64,000 nt of DNA from Bacteroides sp. ET71 (GTDB taxonomy: Bacteria; Bacteroidota; Bacteroidia; Bacteroidales; Bacteroidaceae), in the NCBI RefSeq assembly GCF_023336905.1, contig NZ_JAMBLS010000002.1, positions 1 to 64,000 on the forward strand, written 5' to 3'. The notes beneath the pieces are model-generated. The model did not search any database. It had not been told where the DNA came from and worked only from the letters and a program-made list of their open reading frames with translations. Of the stretch, positions 20,962 to 46,792 are shown piece after piece; the first letter of the stretch is position 1; every line of letters begins with the position of its first letter. Made by a program: the position numbers and the translations under genes.

Positions 20962-21037
20962 GCGGCAATAGCTCAGTTGGTAGAGCATCAGCTTCCCAAG
21001 CTGAGGGTCACGAGTTCGAACCTCGCTTGCCGCTCCA
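20962..21037 (+). tRNA. tRNA-Gly(CCC), with encoded CCA
   Basis: A complete cloverleaf: acceptor GCGGCAA/TTGCCGC, D arm GCTC...GAGC, anticodon stem TCAGC/GCTGA with loop TTCCCAA giving anticodon CCC, T loop TTCGAAC and encoded CCA. It reads GGG codons. The outermost T-stem pair is A with C, not a Watson-Crick pair. The phage integrase lies just downstream, so the 3' half is probably the left attachment site. Confidence 0.95.
21011..21037. other. probable attL core at the tRNA-Gly 3' end
   Basis: Tyrosine integrases of temperate phages commonly recombine at the T-arm and 3' end of tRNA genes. Here the integrase gene begins about 160 bp from the tRNA end, pointing away from it, and everything further right is phage-like. 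The exact core cannot be fixed because the matching attR is outside the window. Confidence 0.6.
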
Positions 21038-21165: not shown

Positions 21166-21195
21166 GACCTAATGCCCTTAACAAAAGAGATAAGT

Positions 21196-22398
21196 ATGAA
21201 AGCAAAGATAGCATTGGATACGCGAAGATGCAAGAAAGATGGGAAATTTCCAGTAGTCATCGAAGTAAGGAATCAAGATAAGATAAGAATTTCTACACCT
21301 TATTCATCCATTCCTGAAAACTGGGATGGATCACAGTTCAATAAGAATGAAAGCAATTTCAAAAGGAAAAACATCATTTTGCAGGATTTACTTAACCGAA
21401 CAGAACGCTATCTGTTAAGTTTGGACGAGAGCCAAAAGGGTATATCCGATAAGGAAATGAGAAAGATTCTATCCGAAATCATATCCGGAAAAGAGCCGGA
21501 TGATCATAGAATGACATTTATCGAATGTTTGGACGAATTTATTGCCCATAAAGATAAGCCAGGAACAAAGACTGTTTATACAACGACTCGAAACAAGATA
21601 TTGACTTTCGATAAAGATTGTACTTTTGAATCCATAAACAAAGACTGGTTGATGCGTTTTGAGCAATGGATGAAAGAATGTGGTATGAAAACAAATGCGT
21701 ATGCCATTCACCTGCGCAACATCAGGGCTGTATTCAACTATGCCATAGACGAAGACTACACCACGCTCTACCCTTTCCGGCGTTTCTCCATCAAGAAGGA
21801 AGAGACCAGAAAGCGAAGTCTTACCGTAGAACAACTCCGGACATTGCGCGATTACCCTTGTGAGGATTATCAGATTAAATACAGAGACCTTTTCATGCTC
21901 ATGTTCTACTTCATCGGCATCAATGCGGCCGACCTGTTCCTTGCCCGAAAGAAAGACGTTGTGAACGGCCGCTTGGAATATAAGAGAGCTAAAACCGGAA
22001 AACTATACTCCATCCTCATACAACCGGAAGCGAAAGCCATCATTAACCGTTATGCAGGAACCGGCGAATACCTGCTGAATGTGATGGATGAATATAAGAA
22101 CTACAAAGACTTCCTGCATCGAATGAACATAGGCCTGCAGCAGATTGGAGCCATGGAACGTGTGGGACGCGGTGGCAAGAAAGTCCGAGAGCCTTTGTTC
22201 CCGGATATTTCATCATATTGGAGTCGCCACACCTGGGCTACCATCGCAGCACAACTGGACACGCCCAAGGATATTATATCCGAAGCCTTGGGACACGAAT
22301 ACGGCAGCTCCACCACCTCCATATACATCAACTTCAACCGCGAGAAGGTAGATGAAGCAAATAGAAGGGTGATAGATTTATTAAATCAACAATTATAA
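21196..22398 (+). CDS. int: tyrosine-type site-specific integrase
   Basis: 400 residues from the ATG giving MKAKIALDTRRCK. An ATG 24 nt upstream is possible, but a purine-rich stretch (AAAGAGATAAG) precedes the chosen one. The layout is an N-terminal arm-binding domain, a core-binding SAM-like domain (about residues 110-200, GTKTVYTTTRNKILTF), then the catalytic domain with the box I region LFLARKKDV, WSRHTWATIAAQL (box II Arg-His; the usual first His position is Tyr), GHEYGSSTTSIYINF (His and nucleophile Tyr). It catalyses phage integration and excision at the adjacent tRNA-Gly. Confidence 0.93.
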   Translation: MKAKIALDTRRCKKDGKFPVVIEVRNQDKIRISTPYSSIPENWDGSQFNKNESNFKRKNIILQDLLNRTERYLLSLDESQKGISDKEMRKILSEIISGKEPDDHRMTFIECLDEFIAHKDKPGTKTVYTTTRNKILTFDKDCTFESINKDWLMRFEQWMKECGMKTNAYAIHLRNIRAVFNYAIDEDYTTLYPFRRFSIKKEETRKRSLTVEQLRTLRDYPCEDYQIKYRDLFMLMFYFIGINAADLFLARKKDVVNGRLEYKRAKTGKLYSILIQPEAKAIINRYAGTGEYLLNVMDEYKNYKDFLHRMNIGLQQIGAMERVGRGGKKVREPLFPDISSYWSRHTWATIAAQLDTPKDIISEALGHEYGSSTTSIYINFNREKVDEANRRVIDLLNQQL

Positions 22399-23524: not shown

Positions 23525-23727
23525 CTCGTTATTTACTTGGATAATATTATCCATTACTTTCATCTCCTGCAAAGACTGATAATCAGAAAATTTTAGATAT
23601 CAGTATAATCATAGATATGCTTATTCATAACTTATCTCCTTTGGGTTTAATATTATCACGAAACCTTGATTGCGCAAAGAAGTGCTACTCACAAACTGAA
23701 TTGAAATATTTGAAGAAAGAAAGAATT

Positions 23728-24126
23728 TTATTTCATATCTTCCACTTTCACCACATGCAAATCAGATTCCCAAACCTTATCATCCACTTTCAGCGTCACG
23801 ACATAAGTCCCGTCTGACGGAATGGGTATATTATTGCCTTTCACAACAACATTTATAATGGCATCCTTGCCTTTTGTATTGGTCGTGTCGGCTGTCATTT
23901 GTCCGGGTGGCATGATATACACATTTTCATCGTTCTTTTTAACGGAAAAATCTATCTTGTGTACGCCTTTCTCATTTTCGCTAAACACCACTCTTGCAAC
24001 CAAGGCGAATTCGGGGTGCAATGTCGGAAATTCCTTGGCGTAGATACTGTTGAACGTGCCAACTATAATCAGTTTACCACCATATTCTTGTGCGCTGTCA
24101 CACAAGGTAAAAATATCTACTTTCAT
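23728..24126 (-). CDS. DUF6941-like protein
   Basis: A 132-residue soluble, beta-rich protein. KVDIFTLCDSAQEYGGKLIIVGTFNSI and FALVARVVFSENEKG resemble the DUF6941 family. No catalytic motif is visible. It is the last gene of a leftward group and overlaps the preceding gene by 4 nt (ATGA). The function is unknown; small beta proteins of this family are often found near defence or stress genes, but that link is only circumstantial here. Confidence 0.75.
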   Translation of the reverse strand: MKVDIFTLCDSAQEYGGKLIIVGTFNSIYAKEFPTLHPEFALVARVVFSENEKGVHKIDFSVKKNDENVYIMPPGQMTADTTNTKGKDAIINVVVKGNNIPIPSDGTYVVTLKVDDKVWESDLHVVKVEDMK

Positions 24127-24575
24127 ATTAATTTATTCTCTATTTGTCTGTTACCACTATGCGCTGAATATCCAAGCAACCTGTCATATACGGAAAAAGG
24201 CGTTTTAATCTTCCCTATTGTCCGTATGTTAGTTTCTATAAGACTGGCACCATGTCTGCCACTTTGTCCCTCCTTTACGATAGGTTTCAAGCTGTCCCTC
24301 TTCGTATCGGCATAAAGACGGATTGCATCGCCTTGTATTCTGTCCCCAACATTTCCATGGACCCCCAATCCAATCCTTATTTGTTGCTCTTCTTCTGTCA
24401 GATTCAAACTTTCCGTCACTTCCACACTGCAATTACGATCCAATTCATACAGAACCATATTTTTGTTGGTTATCGGGTCTTTGCGCAGGCCTCCTTTCTT
24501 GAACTCCATTCTTCGGGCTGAAACGGAACATTTCTTTCCCTCCACCATTTCGCCCTCTCTGATAAACTCTGTCAT
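24123..24575 (-). CDS. hypothetical protein of the lysogeny block
   Basis: 150 residues, soluble, predicted mixed alpha/beta. I do not recognise the family. Its start overlaps the stop of the upstream gene by one base (TAATG) and its stop overlaps the downstream start (ATGA), so it is translationally coupled on both sides. It contains KGGLRKDPITNKNMVLYELDRNC and a polar C-terminus with no membrane segment. Confidence 0.7.
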   Translation of the reverse strand: MTEFIREGEMVEGKKCSVSARRMEFKKGGLRKDPITNKNMVLYELDRNCSVEVTESLNLTEEEQQIRIGLGVHGNVGDRIQGDAIRLYADTKRDSLKPIVKEGQSGRHGASLIETNIRTIGKIKTPFSVYDRLLGYSAHSGNRQIENKLI

Positions 24576-25003
24576 TACTTTTCCGTTAAACTTTTACGAA
24601 TGGAATTGCCGCTGAAAGAAAACAGATCTGCCATGTCATCCACATCCTTAACGTCTTTCAAATAAGGACACAGCGATATTGCAACTTCTATGTCATTCAT
24701 ATCGGCTTCTTCGTTATTAGACACCACATAATCATCTTCATGCTCATCTATTTCTTTATCAAACTCTTCATCGGTTATCTCTTTGTCAAGAAGCTGATTA
24801 TATAGTCTAAAATAATTCCTTTCCCGTGTACGGTTATTCACCGCCCTTATAAGTAGCTGGCTCATGCGATCCATTGATGTTACCATATTGACCGCCTTAT
24901 TGTCTGCAACACCCACAAAAGCCGTGTGGACACCATCGCTCATGGTGACCATTTTAATGCTTTCGCTGTCTATCACAGACAATGAGCTTCTAAAATTATC
25001 CAT
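24575..25003 (-). CDS. hypothetical acidic protein of the lysogeny block
   Basis: 142 residues. The N-terminal part (SVIDSESIKMVTMSDGVHTAFVGVADNKAV, which includes positions 8-37) is beta-like. The central part is a helix ending in an acidic stretch (EEFDKEIDEHEDDYVV). No known motif. It is first of three tightly overlapping genes. A TATATTTG box in the preceding inverted-repeat region could drive it. Confidence 0.7.
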   Translation of the reverse strand: MDNFRSSLSVIDSESIKMVTMSDGVHTAFVGVADNKAVNMVTSMDRMSQLLIRAVNNRTRERNYFRLYNQLLDKEITDEEFDKEIDEHEDDYVVSNNEEADMNDIEVAISLCPYLKDVKDVDDMADLFSFSGNSIRKSLTEK

Positions 25004-25039
25004 AATCTATATGCAATTAATAATATAATGTAATACAAA

Positions 25040-25089
25040 TATAGTGCAAAACCATTTCTTACACATGACTTCGCACTATAAAAATGGTT
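25040..25089. promoter_or_regulatory. interleaved inverted repeats with a leftward -7 box
   Basis: TATAGTGC (25040-25047) pairs with GCACTATA (25073-25080), and AACCATTT (25050-25057) pairs with AAATGGTT (25082-25089). The two pairs alternate. A TATATTTG box on the minus strand overlaps the left end. This looks like an operator region, or an RNA pseudoknot, controlling the three genes to the left. Confidence 0.5.
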
Positions 25090-25112
25090 AATGAGTGGTT
25101 AGCGCCATTGTT

Positions 25113-25238
25113 TCATTCTTCTGCGACATGCACGAGAAGCATCCGGTTGCTGCCCAAAATCCTTGGAGGTACCACATTCACGATACTGCTGTACCTGTCG
25201 CTCTCGCCATGCTTAAGCTGAAAAGTAGCGGATTTCAT
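25113..25238 (-). CDS. 41-residue hypothetical protein
   Basis: Reads MKSATFQLKHGESDRY at the start and ends LLVHVAEE. The start codon overlaps the stop of the upstream 32-residue frame (ATGA) and is preceded by AGGAG. Small, soluble, unknown function. Support comes from coupling and the ribosome-binding sequence only. Confidence 0.45.
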   Translation of the reverse strand: MKSATFQLKHGESDRYSSIVNVVPPRILGSNRMLLVHVAEE

Positions 25239-25333
25239 ATTAACACACTCCTAACCTGATCCGGGGATTGTTGAAAAGCCAAAGCCAGCACAGCAATGAT
25301 GGGTTTGGCGATTCTGCACCAATTCTCTTTCAT
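25235..25333 (-). CDS. 32-residue hypothetical peptide with a hydrophobic segment
   Basis: Begins MKENWCRIAKPIIAVLALAF, which has a short hydrophobic stretch. It is preceded by GAGGAGGTTAAGGA, an unusually strong Shine-Dalgarno sequence for this organism group, and is coupled (ATGA) to the 41-residue frame. The function is unknown; a small membrane peptide is possible. Confidence 0.45.
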   Translation of the reverse strand: MKENWCRIAKPIIAVLALAFQQSPDQVRSVLI

Positions 25334-25364
25334 TCCTTAACCTCCTCGCAAAATTGTATGGATT

Positions 25365-26069
25365 TTATTTAACTTGTACTCTCTCTGCTTCGCCCGTCCA
25401 CTTGTCGATGACCAAAAGCTTGCTAACCACGTATCTTCCGTTCTGGATGTACAAGAAGAATAACGCTAAAGCTAAAATAGCAATAATTATCTTGATTACT
25501 TTATATGGATTAATTTTAGTGCGAGTACATTCATTCTTTCTCGAATTGTAATTTGATTCATCGAAATATAAAGATTTTATACTTTCATTCTTTTGCTTTT
25601 CAATAGATTCTTTGCCAATCGGATTGCTTTCAATCAGTTTCCCATCTATATCTAATACAAATGGAAATTTCGTTTTATCATTCCCAAGTCCATTTTGTTT
25701 GAAAAGACTAACACGATGTAGCAAGTTTGATAGCAATAAACTTTGAGTATTCTCAGATTTGTTTTTAGATACCACATTAAACGAACTAAATTCTTTTCTG
25801 AAAAAATTATATGCGATACTACATTCTTTTTGACTCAAGCAACAATTAGTTATGCGAATACTATTAATCTTATTTTCAGAGTTTATGTTAAAGAATAAAT
25901 CCATATTGGGCAAATTACTGAAAGAGATTTTCTTTATATATAACCCAGATTTTGTTTCTTCTTGATCATAGTTGCGGAGAATGTGTTTTGCATAACTTAT
26001 ATCGGCCATTAATGGGATATCATACACACGTATAGCTCCAATATCAGATATCGATAATATACTTTTCAT
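25365..26069 (-). CDS. tail-anchored membrane protein of the TIR operon
   Basis: 234 residues. The first about 185 are soluble (SILSISDIGAIRVYDIPLMA, LFFNINSENKINSIRITNC). A single C-terminal membrane helix follows (VIKIIIAILALALFFLYI, about residues 190-210) with about 25 residues after it. I do not recognise the family. Its start overlaps the stop of the two-helix membrane protein (ATGA), so it belongs to the repressor-TIR transcript. The membrane topology fits a sensor or effector in a defence or exclusion module, by inference only. Confidence 0.72.
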   Translation of the reverse strand: MKSILSISDIGAIRVYDIPLMADISYAKHILRNYDQEETKSGLYIKKISFSNLPNMDLFFNINSENKINSIRITNCCLSQKECSIAYNFFRKEFSSFNVVSKNKSENTQSLLLSNLLHRVSLFKQNGLGNDKTKFPFVLDIDGKLIESNPIGKESIEKQKNESIKSLYFDESNYNSRKNECTRTKINPYKVIKIIIAILALALFFLYIQNGRYVVSKLLVIDKWTGEAERVQVK

Positions 26070-26710
26070 ATTGACTTTCTTCTATCTTCTAATTCAACAA
26101 ATTTATCTCTTTGTTCTTGAGTAAACTCTTTAGAATTACTTTCCATTATTTCATTTATGGCACCATAAAAACTTGCCTCATCACCAATATTTTTAAATTC
26201 TGATGGGTTCGTGGAATTCAAACATACAGTCATGTTCTTTAAAACCGTATTTATATTTTCATGGACTTGATTGTCGCATCTGGTAAAATGCAAAATAGAA
26301 GAAACAAACACTCTATATGCCCGCATATAATTAACAGAATCACTATTTCCTCCAAGCATCGCAAAACCCTGGACGAAATCTGTAATTCCCATAGTATATT
26401 CTTCTGTTTGAATTCTTTTACTTTCTAAATCTATAAAAGACAATCTGATATCTTCCCGCATAGTTTTATTCTTCTTTACGGAATCAGATATCTTCTTATT
26501 TAAATCAAGAGCATTATAGATATTCCAACCTATCAACAATGCCACAAGTAATGATAATACTCCAACAATCACCCCTATATAATCAAAACCTGGTTCATCC
26601 TCGCTTATTAATCTTGGGCAAGTATTGCACAAAGCAACAATGCTAAATATTACAGCAATAATTGTCAATATTATAGAGAAACAAACATGAGCATACAAAT
26701 TATTCTTCAT
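26066..26710 (-). CDS. two-helix membrane protein with cytoplasmic coiled coil
   Basis: 214 residues. Two membrane helices lie near the N-terminus (VCFSIILTIIAVIFSIVAL and GVIVGVLSLLVALLIGWNIY). A charged, helical soluble part follows (ALDLNKKISDSVKKNKTM). The family is not recognised. It starts 9 bp after the TIR gene and overlaps the next gene by 4 nt. A two-helix membrane protein beside a TIR protein is a plausible partner or effector. Confidence 0.75.
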   Translation of the reverse strand: MKNNLYAHVCFSIILTIIAVIFSIVALCNTCPRLISEDEPGFDYIGVIVGVLSLLVALLIGWNIYNALDLNKKISDSVKKNKTMREDIRLSFIDLESKRIQTEEYTMGITDFVQGFAMLGGNSDSVNYMRAYRVFVSSILHFTRCDNQVHENINTVLKNMTVCLNSTNPSEFKNIGDEASFYGAINEIMESNSKEFTQEQRDKFVELEDRRKSI

Positions 26711-26719
26711 ATTAATAAA

Positions 26720-27448
26720 CTACACAGGAATTCCAGCATTTTTAATTTCCTTCAATAAGCTAAATTTCCAATTATCATCGAAAGGAACATATAACACCCC
26801 GTCAATATCTGATGGCTTTTCTACTTTGTTTTTGCATAAAGCGCACACATTTCCTCTTCCTAATTTAGCCACAAAATAACCAAATTCAAATATTACATTT
26901 TGCCTTGCCCTTCCATTTAAATCATCCCGATTACTCCCACCAACATCGTCAGGAGAAAGCAATATTATAGCAAAGTTTACATCGCTATACTCTTCGAATT
27001 TTTCTATTACAGTTCTTCCACCATTAGGGCACTCATTTAATATTATAGGTTCCAATTTTAATTCTGAAGAAATATATTGAGCAACAGTTAATCTCATCAT
27101 TTCATCATGACCATGTACAATAAAAACTTTTTTATTAGGAATGTTGCCTTTTGTATTCTTATCCATTCTTTCTATCCTATTTATTAAAACATTAAAAGAT
27201 GATTTTATCGATTTGAAATTGTCATACAACACATAACCATTTCCGCTATTATTTACAGAATTAAAAATCTTTAGATAAGGGTCTTCTGGGGGAATTCCAT
27301 TGCCATCAAAGAGAACTAAAGCAGCAGAATGCCAATTAAGATAAGCGTCAATAACATTTCTCATATTAGGATCTTGTTGTTGAATAAGACTTTCATAATA
27401 GTTCATCAGTCTTTTCACTTCTTCTATTTTTGATTGTAAATCTTTCAT
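26720..27448 (-). CDS. TIR-like (CAP12/Pycsar-type) domain protein
   Basis: 242 residues. Residues 1-100 are helical. Residues about 107-242 form a TIR-like domain of the PF10137 kind: KKVFIVHGHDEMMR, NGGRTVIEKFEEYSDVNFAI, ILLSPDDVGG, ARQNVIFEFGYFVAKLGRG (with the conserved Glu) and DIDGVLYVPFDD. Domains of this kind act as NAD+-consuming effectors in CBASS, Pycsar and other anti-phage systems. No cyclase or second-messenger sensor is seen nearby. Its start codon overlaps the repressor stop (TGATG), so it is made together with the repressor in the lysogen. Confidence 0.88.
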   Translation of the reverse strand: MKDLQSKIEEVKRLMNYYESLIQQQDPNMRNVIDAYLNWHSAALVLFDGNGIPPEDPYLKIFNSVNNSGNGYVLYDNFKSIKSSFNVLINRIERMDKNTKGNIPNKKVFIVHGHDEMMRLTVAQYISSELKLEPIILNECPNGGRTVIEKFEEYSDVNFAIILLSPDDVGGSNRDDLNGRARQNVIFEFGYFVAKLGRGNVCALCKNKVEKPSDIDGVLYVPFDDNWKFSLLKEIKNAGIPV

Positions 27449-27837
27449 CACTTAATCTCCGTCATAGAAACCAACTTATCAATGATACAATCCCGCTGCT
27501 TGTAGTTAGAAATAAGCTCACGACAAAGTTCATATAACTCACTACTCTTTTCTAATGGCTTCATTTCCTTCAACCTGCGATTTTCTTCCTTCAGGGCTTT
27601 AATTTCATCATTCTCATTTGGTGTTTCACCAAAAAACACACCTACACGCACATTTAACAGCGACGCTATTTTTTCTAAGTCAGTGGCTTGAATCTTATTA
27701 TTATTGATACATCGATGCAAGTTTGCTTCGCTCATATTAATGTCTTTAGCCAATCCTTTTAGCCCACCTTCTCGATTTTCACACATCTTTTTAATAATCT
27801 GTAAATCCATATCAATCAAATATTTAAATTTATACAA
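27448..27837 (-). CDS. XRE-family prophage repressor
   Basis: 129 residues (120 if the ATG at 27,810 is used). An N-terminal helix-turn-helix spans about residues 12-65 (LKGLAKDINMSEANLHRCINNN, IQATDLEKIASLLNVRVGVFF). A coiled-coil segment (EIKALKEENRRLKEM) and a C-terminal helix probably mediate oligomerisation. No protease-like CI domain is present. It faces away from the early operon across a 135-bp control region, the classic repressor position. TIR and membrane genes follow in the same transcript. Confidence 0.85.
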   Translation of the reverse strand: MYKFKYLIDMDLQIIKKMCENREGGLKGLAKDINMSEANLHRCINNNKIQATDLEKIASLLNVRVGVFFGETPNENDEIKALKEENRRLKEMKPLEKSSELYELCRELISNYKQRDCIIDKLVSMTEIK

Positions 27838-27847
27838 CTAAAAAATA

Positions 27848-27911
27848 TGCAAATCGAATCAAAAATAATGGCTAAAAAATTTGCAAGCCACTATACTTTT
27901 TAATAGCTTTG
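27848..27911. promoter_or_regulatory. lysogeny/lytic divergent control region
   Basis: Rightward: TTTG (27880-27883) and TAGCTTTG (27904-27911), 20 bp apart, give a strong early promoter. Leftward: a TATTTTTG box (27860-27867) could serve the repressor. The inverted repeat TGCAAAT (27848-27854)/ATTTGCA (27879-27885) brackets the leftward box and covers the early -33, so it is a good candidate operator. Confidence 0.65.
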
Positions 27912-27972
27912 CACCATAAAGTTAGCAATAAACTTTAATCATCCCTAAGAAACGAAGTAAAATAAAGTAATA

Positions 27973-28209
27973 ATGAATAAGAAAGACAATACGATGTACA
28001 ACCTGATGAATAACCTGAAAGCCCTGCGTCCATTACTTCCGCAAGGATACATCAAGACCATTGCAGCAAAGACTGGAGACTGCGAGGCAACTGTCAGCAA
28101 TGCCCTACAAGGAAGATCACGCCGCTATGACATCATCAACTGTGCCATAGAACTGGCTTTAGAAAACAAAGCCATATTGGAAAAGTTGGACAAAGTGGTC
28201 AATGCATAG
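27973..28209 (+). CDS. small helix-turn-helix protein, first early gene
   Basis: 78 residues. GYIKTIAAKTGDCEATVSNALQGRSRRYD is a helix-turn-helix of the kind found in Bacteroides phage regulators. The position right after the early promoter and opposite the repressor suggests a Cro-like antirepressor. An alternative ATG lies seven codons in. Confidence 0.78.
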   Translation: MNKKDNTMYNLMNNLKALRPLLPQGYIKTIAAKTGDCEATVSNALQGRSRRYDIINCAIELALENKAILEKLDKVVNA

Positions 28210-28228
28210 AATTGTAAACTAAGGAAAC

Positions 28229-28456
28229 ATGAAAAAGAAAAGATACATATTCAACGAAAACGGGTGGAAGCTAAAACGGGTGGACATCATACAATATAGA
28301 CCGTGGGAATCTTCGGCTATGACCATCGACGTGCGCAAACTCATAGAGATGACAGATGAGGAATTACTAAGGTATAAAGCTGTCGGCCCGGTATCGCTGA
28401 AGAAAATCAATGAAGCAAGAAAAGTATTGAAGGAATTATTGTTTGAAATTAAATAA
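28229..28456 (+). CDS. small protein resembling the RNA polymerase alpha C-terminal domain
   Basis: 75 residues. The second half, IDVRKLIEMTDEELLRYK followed by AVGPVSLKKINEARKVL, matches the helix-hairpin-helix of the RpoA C-terminal domain (family pattern: a Leu-rich helix, then GxxSLxxI). The first part is basic. It may bind DNA or contact host RNA polymerase. The assignment rests on pattern only; any HhH DNA-binding protein would look alike. Confidence 0.68.
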   Translation: MKKKRYIFNENGWKLKRVDIIQYRPWESSAMTIDVRKLIEMTDEELLRYKAVGPVSLKKINEARKVLKELLFEIK

Positions 28457-28465
28457 ATAGAAATT

Positions 28466-29215
28466 ATGGAAGAGAACAGAATTAATGTAGTAGTTCCCAA
28501 GGACTACAATGGGAAGCCTATCGAAGTTGTTTTGAGACAAGGAGTAGCACCGGAATTAGTACCGGAGAAGGCACCTAAATTGATAAAGAAATCCGGATCT
28601 ATAGACGCGCCATTTCGTTGGTTGGAAAAGCGCATTGATACGATTGACCAAAAGAAATGCAACATTGCCGTTTCACGACGCATGATGAGCATTCATCTGT
28701 CTATAGATGAGGAAAATTTCTATAGCCACGAGATTACAGGCTTGCTAGAGCTTTCAGAAGAAGTAAAAAGGCTGAAAATCAATGGTTCCGAATGGGATAG
28801 GAATGAACTGGCCAGAATCTTAGCCATTAGCAAAAGATTCTTCTGCGATGAAAACGAATTCGCACAAATAATCCAAGCACTTGAATCCACTGAAATACAG
28901 TCGAAAAGAAACTCCAATAATACCAAAAATAATAGATCTCGGGAGAATAGAAGTTCCGAATCCATAGAAATCAACACTCCCGAATCGTTCAAGCTTGTGA
29001 TTCCTGTATTGCAAGGGTATGAAAAAAAGAAAATAACAGTTTCCATATACGTTAATTTAACGACCTCCCAATACACCAATGATTTTGAGGCAAAATTCGT
29101 TCTCCTATCAGAGGATGTATATAGATATATTGACGAGGTAAGGGATAAACTGATAGACGAACAGGTAGGCCTCCTCCGCAACCTGGCTCCGAAAGTTCCC
29201 ATTATTGAGATATAA
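28466..29215 (+). CDS. early protein, paralogue of the 34.3-kb gene
   Basis: 249 residues. The N-terminus INVVVPKDYNGKPIEVVLR, the segment RWLEKRIDTIDQKKCNIAVS and the C-terminus DEQVGLLRNLAPKVPIIEI align with the protein encoded at 34,280-35,017. The middle contains a Ser/Asn/Arg-rich linker (KRNSNNTKNNRSRENRSS). I do not recognise the family with confidence; a distant relation to phage DUF2303 proteins is possible. It is AT-rich compared with its paralogue. Confidence 0.75.
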   Translation: MEENRINVVVPKDYNGKPIEVVLRQGVAPELVPEKAPKLIKKSGSIDAPFRWLEKRIDTIDQKKCNIAVSRRMMSIHLSIDEENFYSHEITGLLELSEEVKRLKINGSEWDRNELARILAISKRFFCDENEFAQIIQALESTEIQSKRNSNNTKNNRSRENRSSESIEINTPESFKLVIPVLQGYEKKKITVSIYVNLTTSQYTNDFEAKFVLLSEDVYRYIDEVRDKLIDEQVGLLRNLAPKVPIIEI

Positions 29216-29295
29216 CAATAAATAAGGAGGAACACCGACCGAAATGCTTGTAGCCGCTCAAGGCTCAGAAATGAATAAGATTGAAATAAAAACGT

Positions 29296-29622
29296 ATGAA
29301 CATGGAAGCAACGACACCGGAATACCAGTCCATCGAAGAGCAGGCCGCGAAGAAGGAATTCATCTTCATCAATGGGAAACCTTGGCCATGGAACTGCTAC
29401 TTGTGGAAAGGAAGGGAAGAAAGAAGGCTTCCCCTCCGCATGTACCCGAAGGAACTCTACCTCTACATCAGATACGAACTGTGTAGGGCGTTCCAGTCAG
29501 TTCGCAATTCTCTATCCGTGTGGCTTCGCTCGCTACGATGTTCTGGATACAACTCCTCCAATAATCACAGCAGCAAGACGGATGAGCCTTCAAACAAGGA
29601 CGATAATTGGGACCAAGGGTGA
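29296..29622 (+). CDS. possible early protein overlapped by an opposite gene
   Basis: 108 residues. The first half (EATTPEYQSIEEQAAKKEFIF, spanning positions 4-24, and YLWKGREERRLPLRMYPKEL) looks protein-like. The second half runs over the leftward zinc-ribbon gene and is low in quality. The real gene may be shorter or frameshifted near the end. Confidence 0.4.
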   Translation: MNMEATTPEYQSIEEQAAKKEFIFINGKPWPWNCYLWKGREERRLPLRMYPKELYLYIRYELCRAFQSVRNSLSVWLRSLRCSGYNSSNNHSSKTDEPSNKDDNWDQG

Positions 29623-29707
29623 TGGTAAACTTTGTGCGCTTGTGGCACACCGGACATTCCAAGGAGCTTAGGTACTCCTCAAGTTTTTGGGCATTAATGC
29701 TATTCAT
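29468..29707 (-). CDS. small zinc-ribbon-like protein, leftward
   Basis: 79 residues from the ATG giving MNSINAQKLEEYL. A GTG eight codons upstream lies too close to the promoter. Cysteines in LECPVCHKRTKF and AHPSCCCDYWRSC suggest a zinc-binding fold. It runs against all its neighbours and has its own TATCTTTG box, the pattern of a phage 'moron' expressed in the lysogen. The function is unknown. Confidence 0.58.
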   Translation of the reverse strand: MNSINAQKLEEYLSSLECPVCHKRTKFTITLGPNYRPCLKAHPSCCCDYWRSCIQNIVASEATRIENCELTGTPYTVRI

Positions 29708-29735
29708 ATCGCTATCAAGTTTTTGTTTCACACCA

Positions 29736-29743
29736 CAAAGATA
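29736..29743 (-). promoter_or_regulatory. -7 box (TATCTTTG) of the leftward zinc-ribbon gene
   Basis: TATCTTTG on the minus strand lies about 29 nt before the preferred ATG. It gives this gene independent expression from within the early region. Confidence 0.55.
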
Positions 29744-29822
29744 GCGAAATCCCGGAGAAAAGCGTGAGCGGCTGGATCGAATCGGCCTCCGGGAACCAAT
29801 ATAAACTTAAAAACGAAACGAT

Positions 29823-29987
29823 ATGAAACTCTACATCTACCCCATCGTCAGCCTCGTGATGCTCATCGCCAGCCGGCTGATTTCACATTATGTCCCGTAC
29901 GAAGCATGGAGCATCGCACTGTATGTGCTGGGATTCATTCCGTTGGGAATATATGCCTGGAAATGTGATAAACTCTCTAAAAACTGA
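29823..29987 (+). CDS. 54-residue two-helix membrane peptide
   Basis: Starts MKLYIYPIVSLVMLIASRLI and has a second hydrophobic stretch (SIALYVLGFIPLGIYAW). The C-terminus is basic. The frame is complete, with a start shortly after an A-rich stretch and a stop just before the next gene. Unknown function. Confidence 0.6.
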   Translation: MKLYIYPIVSLVMLIASRLISHYVPYEAWSIALYVLGFIPLGIYAWKCDKLSKN

Positions 29988-29994
29988 TAGAATT

Positions 29995-30207
29995 ATGGCA
30001 AGACAACGGATTATAGGAAAGATACAACCGATTCCGAAGGTGTGGCTCAGCAAGAAGGAACTGGCCGCCTATCTGGGAGTGACTACGAGATATATCGAGA
30101 TGAACATCAACACCAATCCTAAAGTGGACATATACAGGCCCAGCGAGCGGATAGTGTTGTACAACAAGGAGAATATCGACCAGATCGTACGCAGGTCGAA
30201 AATATAA
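29995..30207 (+). CDS. excisionase/MerR-like DNA-binding protein
   Basis: 70 residues from the ATG giving MARQRIIGKIQPIPKVWLS. The frame is open upstream but non-family there. WLSKKELAAYLGVTTRYIEMNI is a winged-helix motif as in excisionases, followed by IVLYNKENIDQIVR. It could assist prophage excision or regulate early genes. Confidence 0.75.
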   Translation: MARQRIIGKIQPIPKVWLSKKELAAYLGVTTRYIEMNINTNPKVDIYRPSERIVLYNKENIDQIVRRSKI

Positions 30208-38435: not shown

Positions 38436-38659
38436 ACCGCTTTCAGCAGCTTACGAAATATTCCGCGCCATACAACAGACCGAAGATGAAGAAACAACCA
38501 TCCAAACCAACCCGTGACATCACCATACCCGTCAGATGCCGGGACTGCGTCAACGCATTGGAGTTCATCGAGAACTCATGCTACTGCAAGGCGATGGGAA
38601 GGAGGACGTGTGCCTGCCGGAGATACGGACGTGTATGCGAACATTTTCAGAAGAAATAG
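38432..38659 (+). CDS. cysteine-rich zinc-finger-like protein
   Basis: 75 residues from the ATG overlapping the previous stop (ATGA). The second half has VRCRDCVNAL, NSCYCKAMG and TCACRRYGRVCEHF, seven or eight Cys plus one His, a likely double zinc site. The first half is basic. Probably nucleic-acid binding. Confidence 0.7.
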   Translation: MNRFQQLTKYSAPYNRPKMKKQPSKPTRDITIPVRCRDCVNALEFIENSCYCKAMGRRTCACRRYGRVCEHFQKK

Positions 38660-38712
38660 TATTTTCATTCCCGCCCCGAAAGGTCAGCGGGATTTTTTAT
38701 ACCCATACCACA

Positions 38713-39636
38713 ATGAATATCGCACTGCTCCCCGTAGACAGCACCTACCCCAACCTCGCCCTGATGAAACTGTCCGCCTGGCACAAGAAGCATGGCGACA
38801 CCGTGCAATGGTACAACTCGCTTGACCGTTACGACAAGGTGTATATGACCAAGGTTTTCACCTTCACGCCCGACTATGGCTATTATATCAACGCCGACGA
38901 AGTGGAGAAGGGTGGAACCGGATACGACCTTCACAAAACACTACCCCAATCGATAGACCGCATCCAGCCCGACTACTCCATTTACCCGCAGATAGACGAC
39001 AAGACCGCCTATGGCTTCCTTACTCGTGGATGCCCCAACCGCTGCAAGTGGTGCGTGGTGCCGAAGAAAGAAGGAAAGATTGCCCCATACATGGACGTGG
39101 ACGAGATAGCCGTTAGTGGCCGCACCAATCTCATCCTAATGGACAACAACATCCTTGCCTCCGACTACGGATTGGCACAAGTCGAAAAAATCGTCCGACG
39201 AAAGTATCATGTGGATTTCAACCAAGGACTTGACGCACGGTTGGTGACGGACAACATCGCCAAACTGCTTGCCAAGGTTAAATGGATAAAGCGCATCCGC
39301 TTCGGTTGCGACACTCCCCAACAGATAGCCGAATGTGAACGTGCAACAGCCCTTATTGACAAATATGGATACAGGGGCGAATACTTCTTCTATTGCATCT
39401 TGTTGGATGATTTTAATGAGTCATTCAACCGAGTAAACCATTGGAGGAGCAAGGGCAGAAGATTCCTTCCTCATGCCCAGCCTTACCGCGATGTGAACAA
39501 TCCTCACCAAATCATTCCGCAATGGCAGAAGGATCTGGCTGGCTGGGCTGACAAGAAATGGATTTTCCGCACCTGCGAGTTCAAAGACTTCGAACCGAGG
39601 AAAGGATTTAAATGTAAACAATATTTTGAACAATGA
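38713..39636 (+). CDS. radical SAM enzyme
   Basis: 307 residues from the ATG giving MNIALLPVDSTYPNLALMKL. Upstream codons overlap the zinc-finger gene and are not family-like. FLTRGCPNRCKWCVVPKKEG holds the CxxxCxxC iron-sulfur motif at about residue 105. The N-terminus (NIALLPVDSTYPNLALMKLS) resembles a degenerate B12-binding-like region, and LILMDNNILAS and IRFGCDTPQQI follow as in MiaB/YgiQ-type barrels. The reaction is unknown; tRNA, DNA or protein modification are possible. It overlaps the next gene by 4 nt. Confidence 0.86.
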   Translation: MNIALLPVDSTYPNLALMKLSAWHKKHGDTVQWYNSLDRYDKVYMTKVFTFTPDYGYYINADEVEKGGTGYDLHKTLPQSIDRIQPDYSIYPQIDDKTAYGFLTRGCPNRCKWCVVPKKEGKIAPYMDVDEIAVSGRTNLILMDNNILASDYGLAQVEKIVRRKYHVDFNQGLDARLVTDNIAKLLAKVKWIKRIRFGCDTPQQIAECERATALIDKYGYRGEYFFYCILLDDFNESFNRVNHWRSKGRRFLPHAQPYRDVNNPHQIIPQWQKDLAGWADKKWIFRTCEFKDFEPRKGFKCKQYFEQ

Positions 39637-46702: not shown

Positions 46703-46792
46703 AGTCAAATCTCCTATACTTTAAATGGTTAATAATTAAAACTTATCTCGAAGAAATTCTTCATTCTTAATTCTTCATTCTTCATTTCTCCC

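Follow-up and report, generated by a model that had tools for sequence, protein, structure and literature searches.

Bacteroides sp. ET71 carries a leftward four-gene operon at 25365-27837 of the window, by which we mean the whole stretch of 64,000 nucleotides that was analysed. An XRE repressor gene comes first and is followed by genes for a TIR protein, a two-helix membrane protein (2TM) and a further helix-bearing protein (protein 4). The question raised by this locus is whether the last three genes make up one defence system or were brought together as cargo. The initial annotation took the TIR and two membrane proteins for one module. This is not borne out, as the genes do not recur together in the loci searched.

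Setting and layout of the operon

The four open reading frames lie at the places and on the strand given by the initial annotation. The first, P0004 (27448..27837, reverse strand), encodes a 129-aa XRE regulator with a Cro/CI-type HTH (PF13443, 4.3e-6), in agreement with its earlier identification, and is a probable prophage repressor. It is coupled by a common TGATG to the TIR gene, P0001 (26720..27451, reverse strand), for which GTG 27451 and ATG 27448 are alternative starts. Nine bp separate the TIR stop from the ATG of P0002 (26066..26710, reverse strand; 214 aa), a 2TM family protein with a soluble C-terminal part and two N-terminal helices, predicted by hydropathy at aa 9-27 and 42-60. 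An ATGA overlap then leads into the gene for protein 4, P0003 (25365..26069, reverse strand; 234 aa). All three junctions, and the two-helix character of the third protein, had been described correctly. The fourth protein had been called tail-anchored: hydropathy does predict one helix near the C-terminus (aa 191-209), but because 25 residues come after this helix the protein is not strictly tail-anchored.

The prophage, which sits in tRNA-Gly, is 68,309 bp long and is delimited by two copies of a 48-bp direct repeat of the tRNA-Gly 3' end, attL at 20990..21037 (forward strand) and the other at contig positions 89299-89346. It has a tyrosine-type integrase (21172..22398, forward strand; Phage_int_SAM_5, 1e-17), as well as Erf, SSB, NinG and helicase genes. 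A Mu-like prophage was considered and dropped, as the tRNA att site, tyrosine integrase, Erf, SSB and NinG speak otherwise. Across a gap of 135 bp, the XRE gene faces a small divergent Cro-like gene (27973..28209, forward strand), whose HTH match is weak; by eye, a similar protein is found at the same place in the related viral contig L146. Two near-identical 15-mers, CTAAAAAATWTGCAA, 34 bp apart (27838-27852 and 27872-27886), form a candidate operator region at 27838..27886. The upstream box of a rightward promoter candidate, TTTG-N20-TAGCTTTG (27880..27911, forward strand), which follows the Bacteroides promoter consensus, falls within the second 15-mer. The divergent gene pair, the 15-mers and the promoter candidate together have the layout of a phage immunity region. 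With the att repeats, the integrase and the XRE gene facing a Cro-like gene, the proposal of a prophage repressor operon as the setting holds. No other repressor was seen between the integrase and the early genes, and DNA from 23600 to 30000 has no match in phage records.

GC content is 34.1% in the XRE gene, 31.3% in the TIR gene, 31.0% in the 2TM gene and 30.5% in gene 4 (28.6% in its body), compared with 39.2-48.4% in the other prophage stretches measured and 47.6% in a host stretch. The AT-rich cassette probably arrived as one block. Three more leftward genes, one with DUF6941 (4.7e-29), lie between the cassette and the integrase (23728-25003). Elsewhere in the prophage there is a phage-type radical SAM protein (38536-39636; phrog_9298, 9e-128) and, towards the right end, a leftward open reading frame of 4,656 codons (contig 73003-86973; L144/L145).

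By its sequence, protein 4 is an orphan that ends in a phage microprotein. An orphan soluble part (about 1-180) is joined to a helix and tail (match 25374-25517) that are homologous to a stand-alone 52-residue phage microprotein (68% over 50 and 66% over 44 residues), for which no match was found in phage records. Directly downstream of gene 4 is a truncated remnant of the 5' end of this single-helix microprotein gene (25275..25338, reverse strand). The gene is whole in two related elements, L076 and L146. L076, from an uncultured Bacteroides, has 75% DNA identity with the window over 1,425 bp of the tRNA-integrase stretch and 89% over 477 bp of the early segment, and encodes, besides an XRE protein, a 2TM member (E 1.4e-12), a protein with a DnaJ domain, a small protein with a helix, and the 52-residue microprotein. 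L146 is the start of a 67,541-bp viral contig with an integrase at 77% to that of the window, and holds an S24-type repressor (by eye), two short secreted-looking proteins and the microprotein; neither TIR nor 2TM was found in its 10.2 kb at the contig start. Thus, in a comparison based on three elements (the window, L076 and L146), repressor and cargo vary between fixed flanks, and gene 4 carries a scar left by exchange. Additionally, the 25 bp at 46755-46779 of the window recur without a mismatch in both L076 and L146, where the surrounding sequence does not match.

The TIR protein and the search for recurrent partners

P0001 (243 aa) has an N-domain (about 1-95) and a CAP12/Pycsar-type TIR domain (108-225). 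The PF10137-type identity claimed for it is well supported (CAP12-PCTIR_TIR, 6.2e-37; 126.7 bits over residues 108-225, against a curated Pfam cut-off of 24.7), and residues 81-243 match PADLOC PDC-S35 (4.3e-67). It belongs, as had been claimed, to the class of known NAD-consuming effectors. Glu189, in an FEFG segment, is invariant in 22 sequences (P0001 and 21 viral TIR proteins) and lines up with the Glu seen in Cap12 structures; we take it to be the catalytic Glu of PF10137 TIRs. To judge from its family, P0001 may consume NAD+ as an abortive-infection effector.

PDC-S35, a candidate single-gene TIR defence on which no paper was found in the open-licence PMC literature, is matched by the TIR half of P0001, whereas the N-domain (1-80) lies outside the match. 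Cap12/TIR-STING of CBASS and PycTIR of Pycsar share the TIR class and the conserved Glu, but neither STING nor another known ligand domain was found in P0001. For two cyclase families, the earlier remark that no cyclase is nearby can be widened to the whole assembly, in which SMODS CD-NTase (PF18144) and class III cyclase (PF00211) have no match, while the same models match in 3/14 and 5/14 control genomes. As both cyclases are absent from the assembly, there is no support for a CBASS or Pycsar system. In a 2026 TIR atlas, PF10137 TIRs are assigned to one clade, together with relatives of the phage-defence protein TIR-STING (PMC13142454).

Going by the sequences to which it is joined, the N-domain appears to be an exchangeable regulatory module of TIR proteins. 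It is found in 3/392 other genomes of the order at E <= 1e-3, two of the matches being strong (L060 and L061); in these two a TIR-like region adjoins it by reading, with weak NCBIfam support. Within the family, the search found it combined with PF10137 in L024 and with TIR_2 in L029. A sequence search of 50 viral TIR proteins found no N-domain of this kind. In L029, L060 and L061 the domain is joined to TIR domains of another class.

Among 200 other genomes of the family, P0001 has matches in seven (in L029 to the N-domain only, and weakly in L030), P0002 in six and P0003 in one, weak and C-terminal, and no genome is common to the three match lists. The viral-contig scan gave 51 TIR loci, one of them without a readable TIR open reading frame, leaving 50 TIR genes that were read. 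No 2TM member was found in the TIR-query loci (0/51 viral, 0/7 genomic; open reading frames of at least 80 aa, some loci ending at contig ends). Conversely, a search of 33 2TM loci turned up no PF10137 TIR (13 viral, L076, 6 from the family and 13 from the order, some again ending at contig ends). Viral-contig scans with P0001, P0002, P0003, the microprotein and the early gene at 28466-29212 as queries returned no relative. The trio of TIR, 2TM and protein 4 is not a recurrent system in anything searched. The initial annotation had itself named, as the result that would speak against its module, a TIR gene found mostly without the membrane genes, and this is what the search showed.

TIR is a common prophage cargo. 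Its position behind an XRE gene is unusual, since only 2/50 of the viral TIR genes read are found there. These two, at L080:3951-5471 and L096:4215-5435, are PF10137 TIR genes directly after an XRE gene on unrelated viral contigs.

Distribution of the 2TM family

The 2TM family was defined by homology over the two helices, with P0002 as a seed; L076 and the viral members were outside the first model. An order-wide alignment search found it in 24/393 genomes including the window's own, that is in 23/392 others, with the weakest matches doubtful. Genomic contexts were read for 19 members, comprising 6/6 other matches from the family and 13/23 from the order. The gene lies inside defence operons (restriction, Qat or Dnd/Pbe-like) in 9/19: type I restriction (L063, L064, L065), type IIG (L011, L067), type III (L073), Qat (L066), Dnd/Pbe-like (L075) and, with weaker PADLOC support, a helicase operon like that of L067 (L010). 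It is beside a prophage-type repressor in 5/19 (L009, L014, L070, L072, L074), and has neither repressor nor defence genes around it in the remaining five (L012, L013, L068, L069, L071), nor in the viral locus L136.

The viral contigs yielded 13 2TM loci, 11 of them distinct. The protein of L129 is identical to that of L014, so that the viral and genomic sets are not wholly independent. In Dulem virus 40, a complete phage record, the 2TM gene is flanked by two XRE genes. A same-strand XRE-type gene is found within 1.3 kb in 10/12 distinct 2TM phage loci (the 11 viral loci and Dulem virus 40) versus 2/47 distinct TIR loci (Fisher p = 6e-8), as judged with a leave-one-out repressor HMM that was trained on 2TM-adjacent repressors and may let other repressors near TIR genes escape. 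Direct reading of same-strand genes close upstream of TIR genes gave the same two cases, L080 and L096. The two 2TM phage loci without an XRE-type gene are L136 and L134, in which the contig stops 252 bp past the gene. Pfam models found Peptidase_S24 in 7 of 15 repressors scanned and HTH models in several others. The 2TM gene lies ahead of the repressor in most phage loci, and behind it in the window, L009, L072 and L076.

In a quick tree of 35 members, in which 3/32 inner branches are strong, the prophage label changes six times (0/500 shuffles as low) and the defence label five times (1/500). P0002 falls within a neighbourhood of 16 rows, made up of 12 phage, three other and one other-phage rows with no defence rows, and the 2TM of L076 is on the defence side. 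No Pfam or PHROG model fits any of 14 members scanned, NCBIfam matches for two members are far under cut-off, and P0002 has no match in PADLOC or in 50,697 phage records. SLATT effectors resemble the family in their two N-terminal helices, with sub-threshold matches only. Membership was rejected, as the score is 16.3 bits against a cut-off of 55 and profile alignment (hhalign) to two SLATT_4 proteins is no better than to reversed controls.

Readings of the cassette

We favour, as somewhat probable, an exchangeable immunity cassette of a Bacteroidales prophage at the RexAB/BstA position, in which a repressor-linked TIR gene, expressed in the lysogen, serves abortive infection and 2TM is an exclusion factor in its own right. 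Protection of the lysogen is our best guess for its role. This reading is suggested by the PF10137 and PDC-S35 matches with the invariant Glu189, by an AT-rich, repressor-first operon that faces a Cro-like gene with operator-like repeats, and by the other cargo that L076 and L146 hold between repressor and microprotein. It is also suggested by the association of 2TM with repressors (10/12 vs 2/47) and its presence in defence operons (9/19), and by precedents. BstA of prophage BTP1 is described as a defence factor of lysogens whose gene follows the repressor in many prophages, with lambda rexAB at the same site (PMC8585504). The likeness is in a defence-type gene directly behind a prophage repressor, although by family search the BstA protein is unrelated to those of the window. 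In a RexAB-type system of a Pseudomonas putida prophage, RexB is described as damaging the membrane (PMC12894663). The RexAB operons of lambda and P. putida prophage 1 are like the cassette in having a membrane protein in a repressor-side defence operon, but RexA is DNA-binding whereas the cytosolic partner here is a TIR, and no sequence match of 2TM to a RexB model was found. SpbK of ICEBs1, like P0001, is the product of a lone TIR gene on a mobile element, and aborts phage infection; its domain is of the TIR_2 type, however, and in the passages of PMC8880864 that describe it the gene is not in a repressor operon. Against the favoured reading count the rarity of TIR genes right behind XRE, the place of 2TM after the repressor here and before it in most phage loci, the low frequency of the 2TM family (6/200 in the family, 23/392 in the order) with P0002 unmatched in phage records, the 5/19 contexts and L136 without repressor or defence genes, and the position of L076 on the defence side.

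If the locus is such a cassette, the XRE protein would repress the divergent early operon that it faces, and its leftward transcript would keep the overlapping, tightly packed cargo genes on in the lysogen. By analogy with its family, the TIR protein would sense infection through its N-domain, the TIR domains would assemble and consume NAD+, and the cell would halt or die ahead of the maturation of a rival phage. Position and company suggest that 2TM may be a membrane exclusion or membrane-damaging factor, RexB-like as in lambda. Protein 4 appears to be a late addition, with helix and tail from the phage's own microprotein, and may do no more than anchor its soluble part at the inner membrane.

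Overlapping or closely spaced genes in a single operon, and the low GC common to all three, would also suit one tripartite system in which the membrane proteins act as infection sensors or as a pore and activate the TIR. This is distinctly unlikely, as no pair recurs in the 51 viral and 7 genomic TIR-query loci or the 33 2TM loci, and protein 4, an orphan, arose by fusion with a microprotein. The tight association of 2TM with repressors in phages, and its place between two XRE genes in Dulem virus 40, could instead reflect lysogeny control. In that case 2TM would be bound to the membrane and modulate the repressor or induction, and the TIR would be independent cargo. We consider this unlikely, given that restriction, Qat and Dnd/Pbe-like operons in which no phage repressor is seen also contain 2TM members.

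The overlap of the XRE and TIR genes, and the two further XRE-TIR neighbours (L080 and L096), are what a toxin-antitoxin-like addiction pair would give in place of a prophage repressor with cargo. However, the XRE gene is opposite a Cro-like gene within a prophage immunity region, no second repressor is seen between integrase and early genes, and XRE and TIR are not regular partners (2/47), making such a pair very improbable. There is just as little to expect from the idea that the cargo is decaying and functionless: the truncated microprotein remnant, the fusion behind protein 4 and the orphan state of this protein agree with decay, but the reading frames of XRE, TIR and 2TM are unbroken, and P0001 retains the conserved residues of its TIR domain, Glu189 among them.

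That prophages carry defence genes behind their repressor is already known (lambda rexAB and bstA), and no paper on TIR or 2TM cargo at this position in Bacteroides prophages was found in the open-licence PMC literature. The part worth pursuing is the link that the 2TM family makes between prophage immunity regions and host defence operons. Tentatively, 2TM may be an undescribed Bacteroidales family of membrane effectors with a dual use: a lysogen-expressed exclusion or suicide factor at the repressor locus of temperate phages, and a membrane-damaging back-up, embedded in host restriction, Qat and Dnd/Pbe-like operons, for when the first-line system is beaten. Its pairing with a TIR here would be due to cargo shuffling. 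With no fitting model in Pfam, PHROGs or NCBIfam, the family offers an inexpensive starting point for the annotation of defence genes in gut Bacteroidales.

Two of the other 2TM loci have a gene content of note. A phage immunity region at L133:4902-7741 has three 2TM family genes around an XRE-type repressor gene. In the prophage repressor operon at L009:4707-7855, an undecaprenyl diphosphate synthase gene (PF01255, 6.9e-83) lies beside 2TM, and perhaps serves cell-envelope exclusion.
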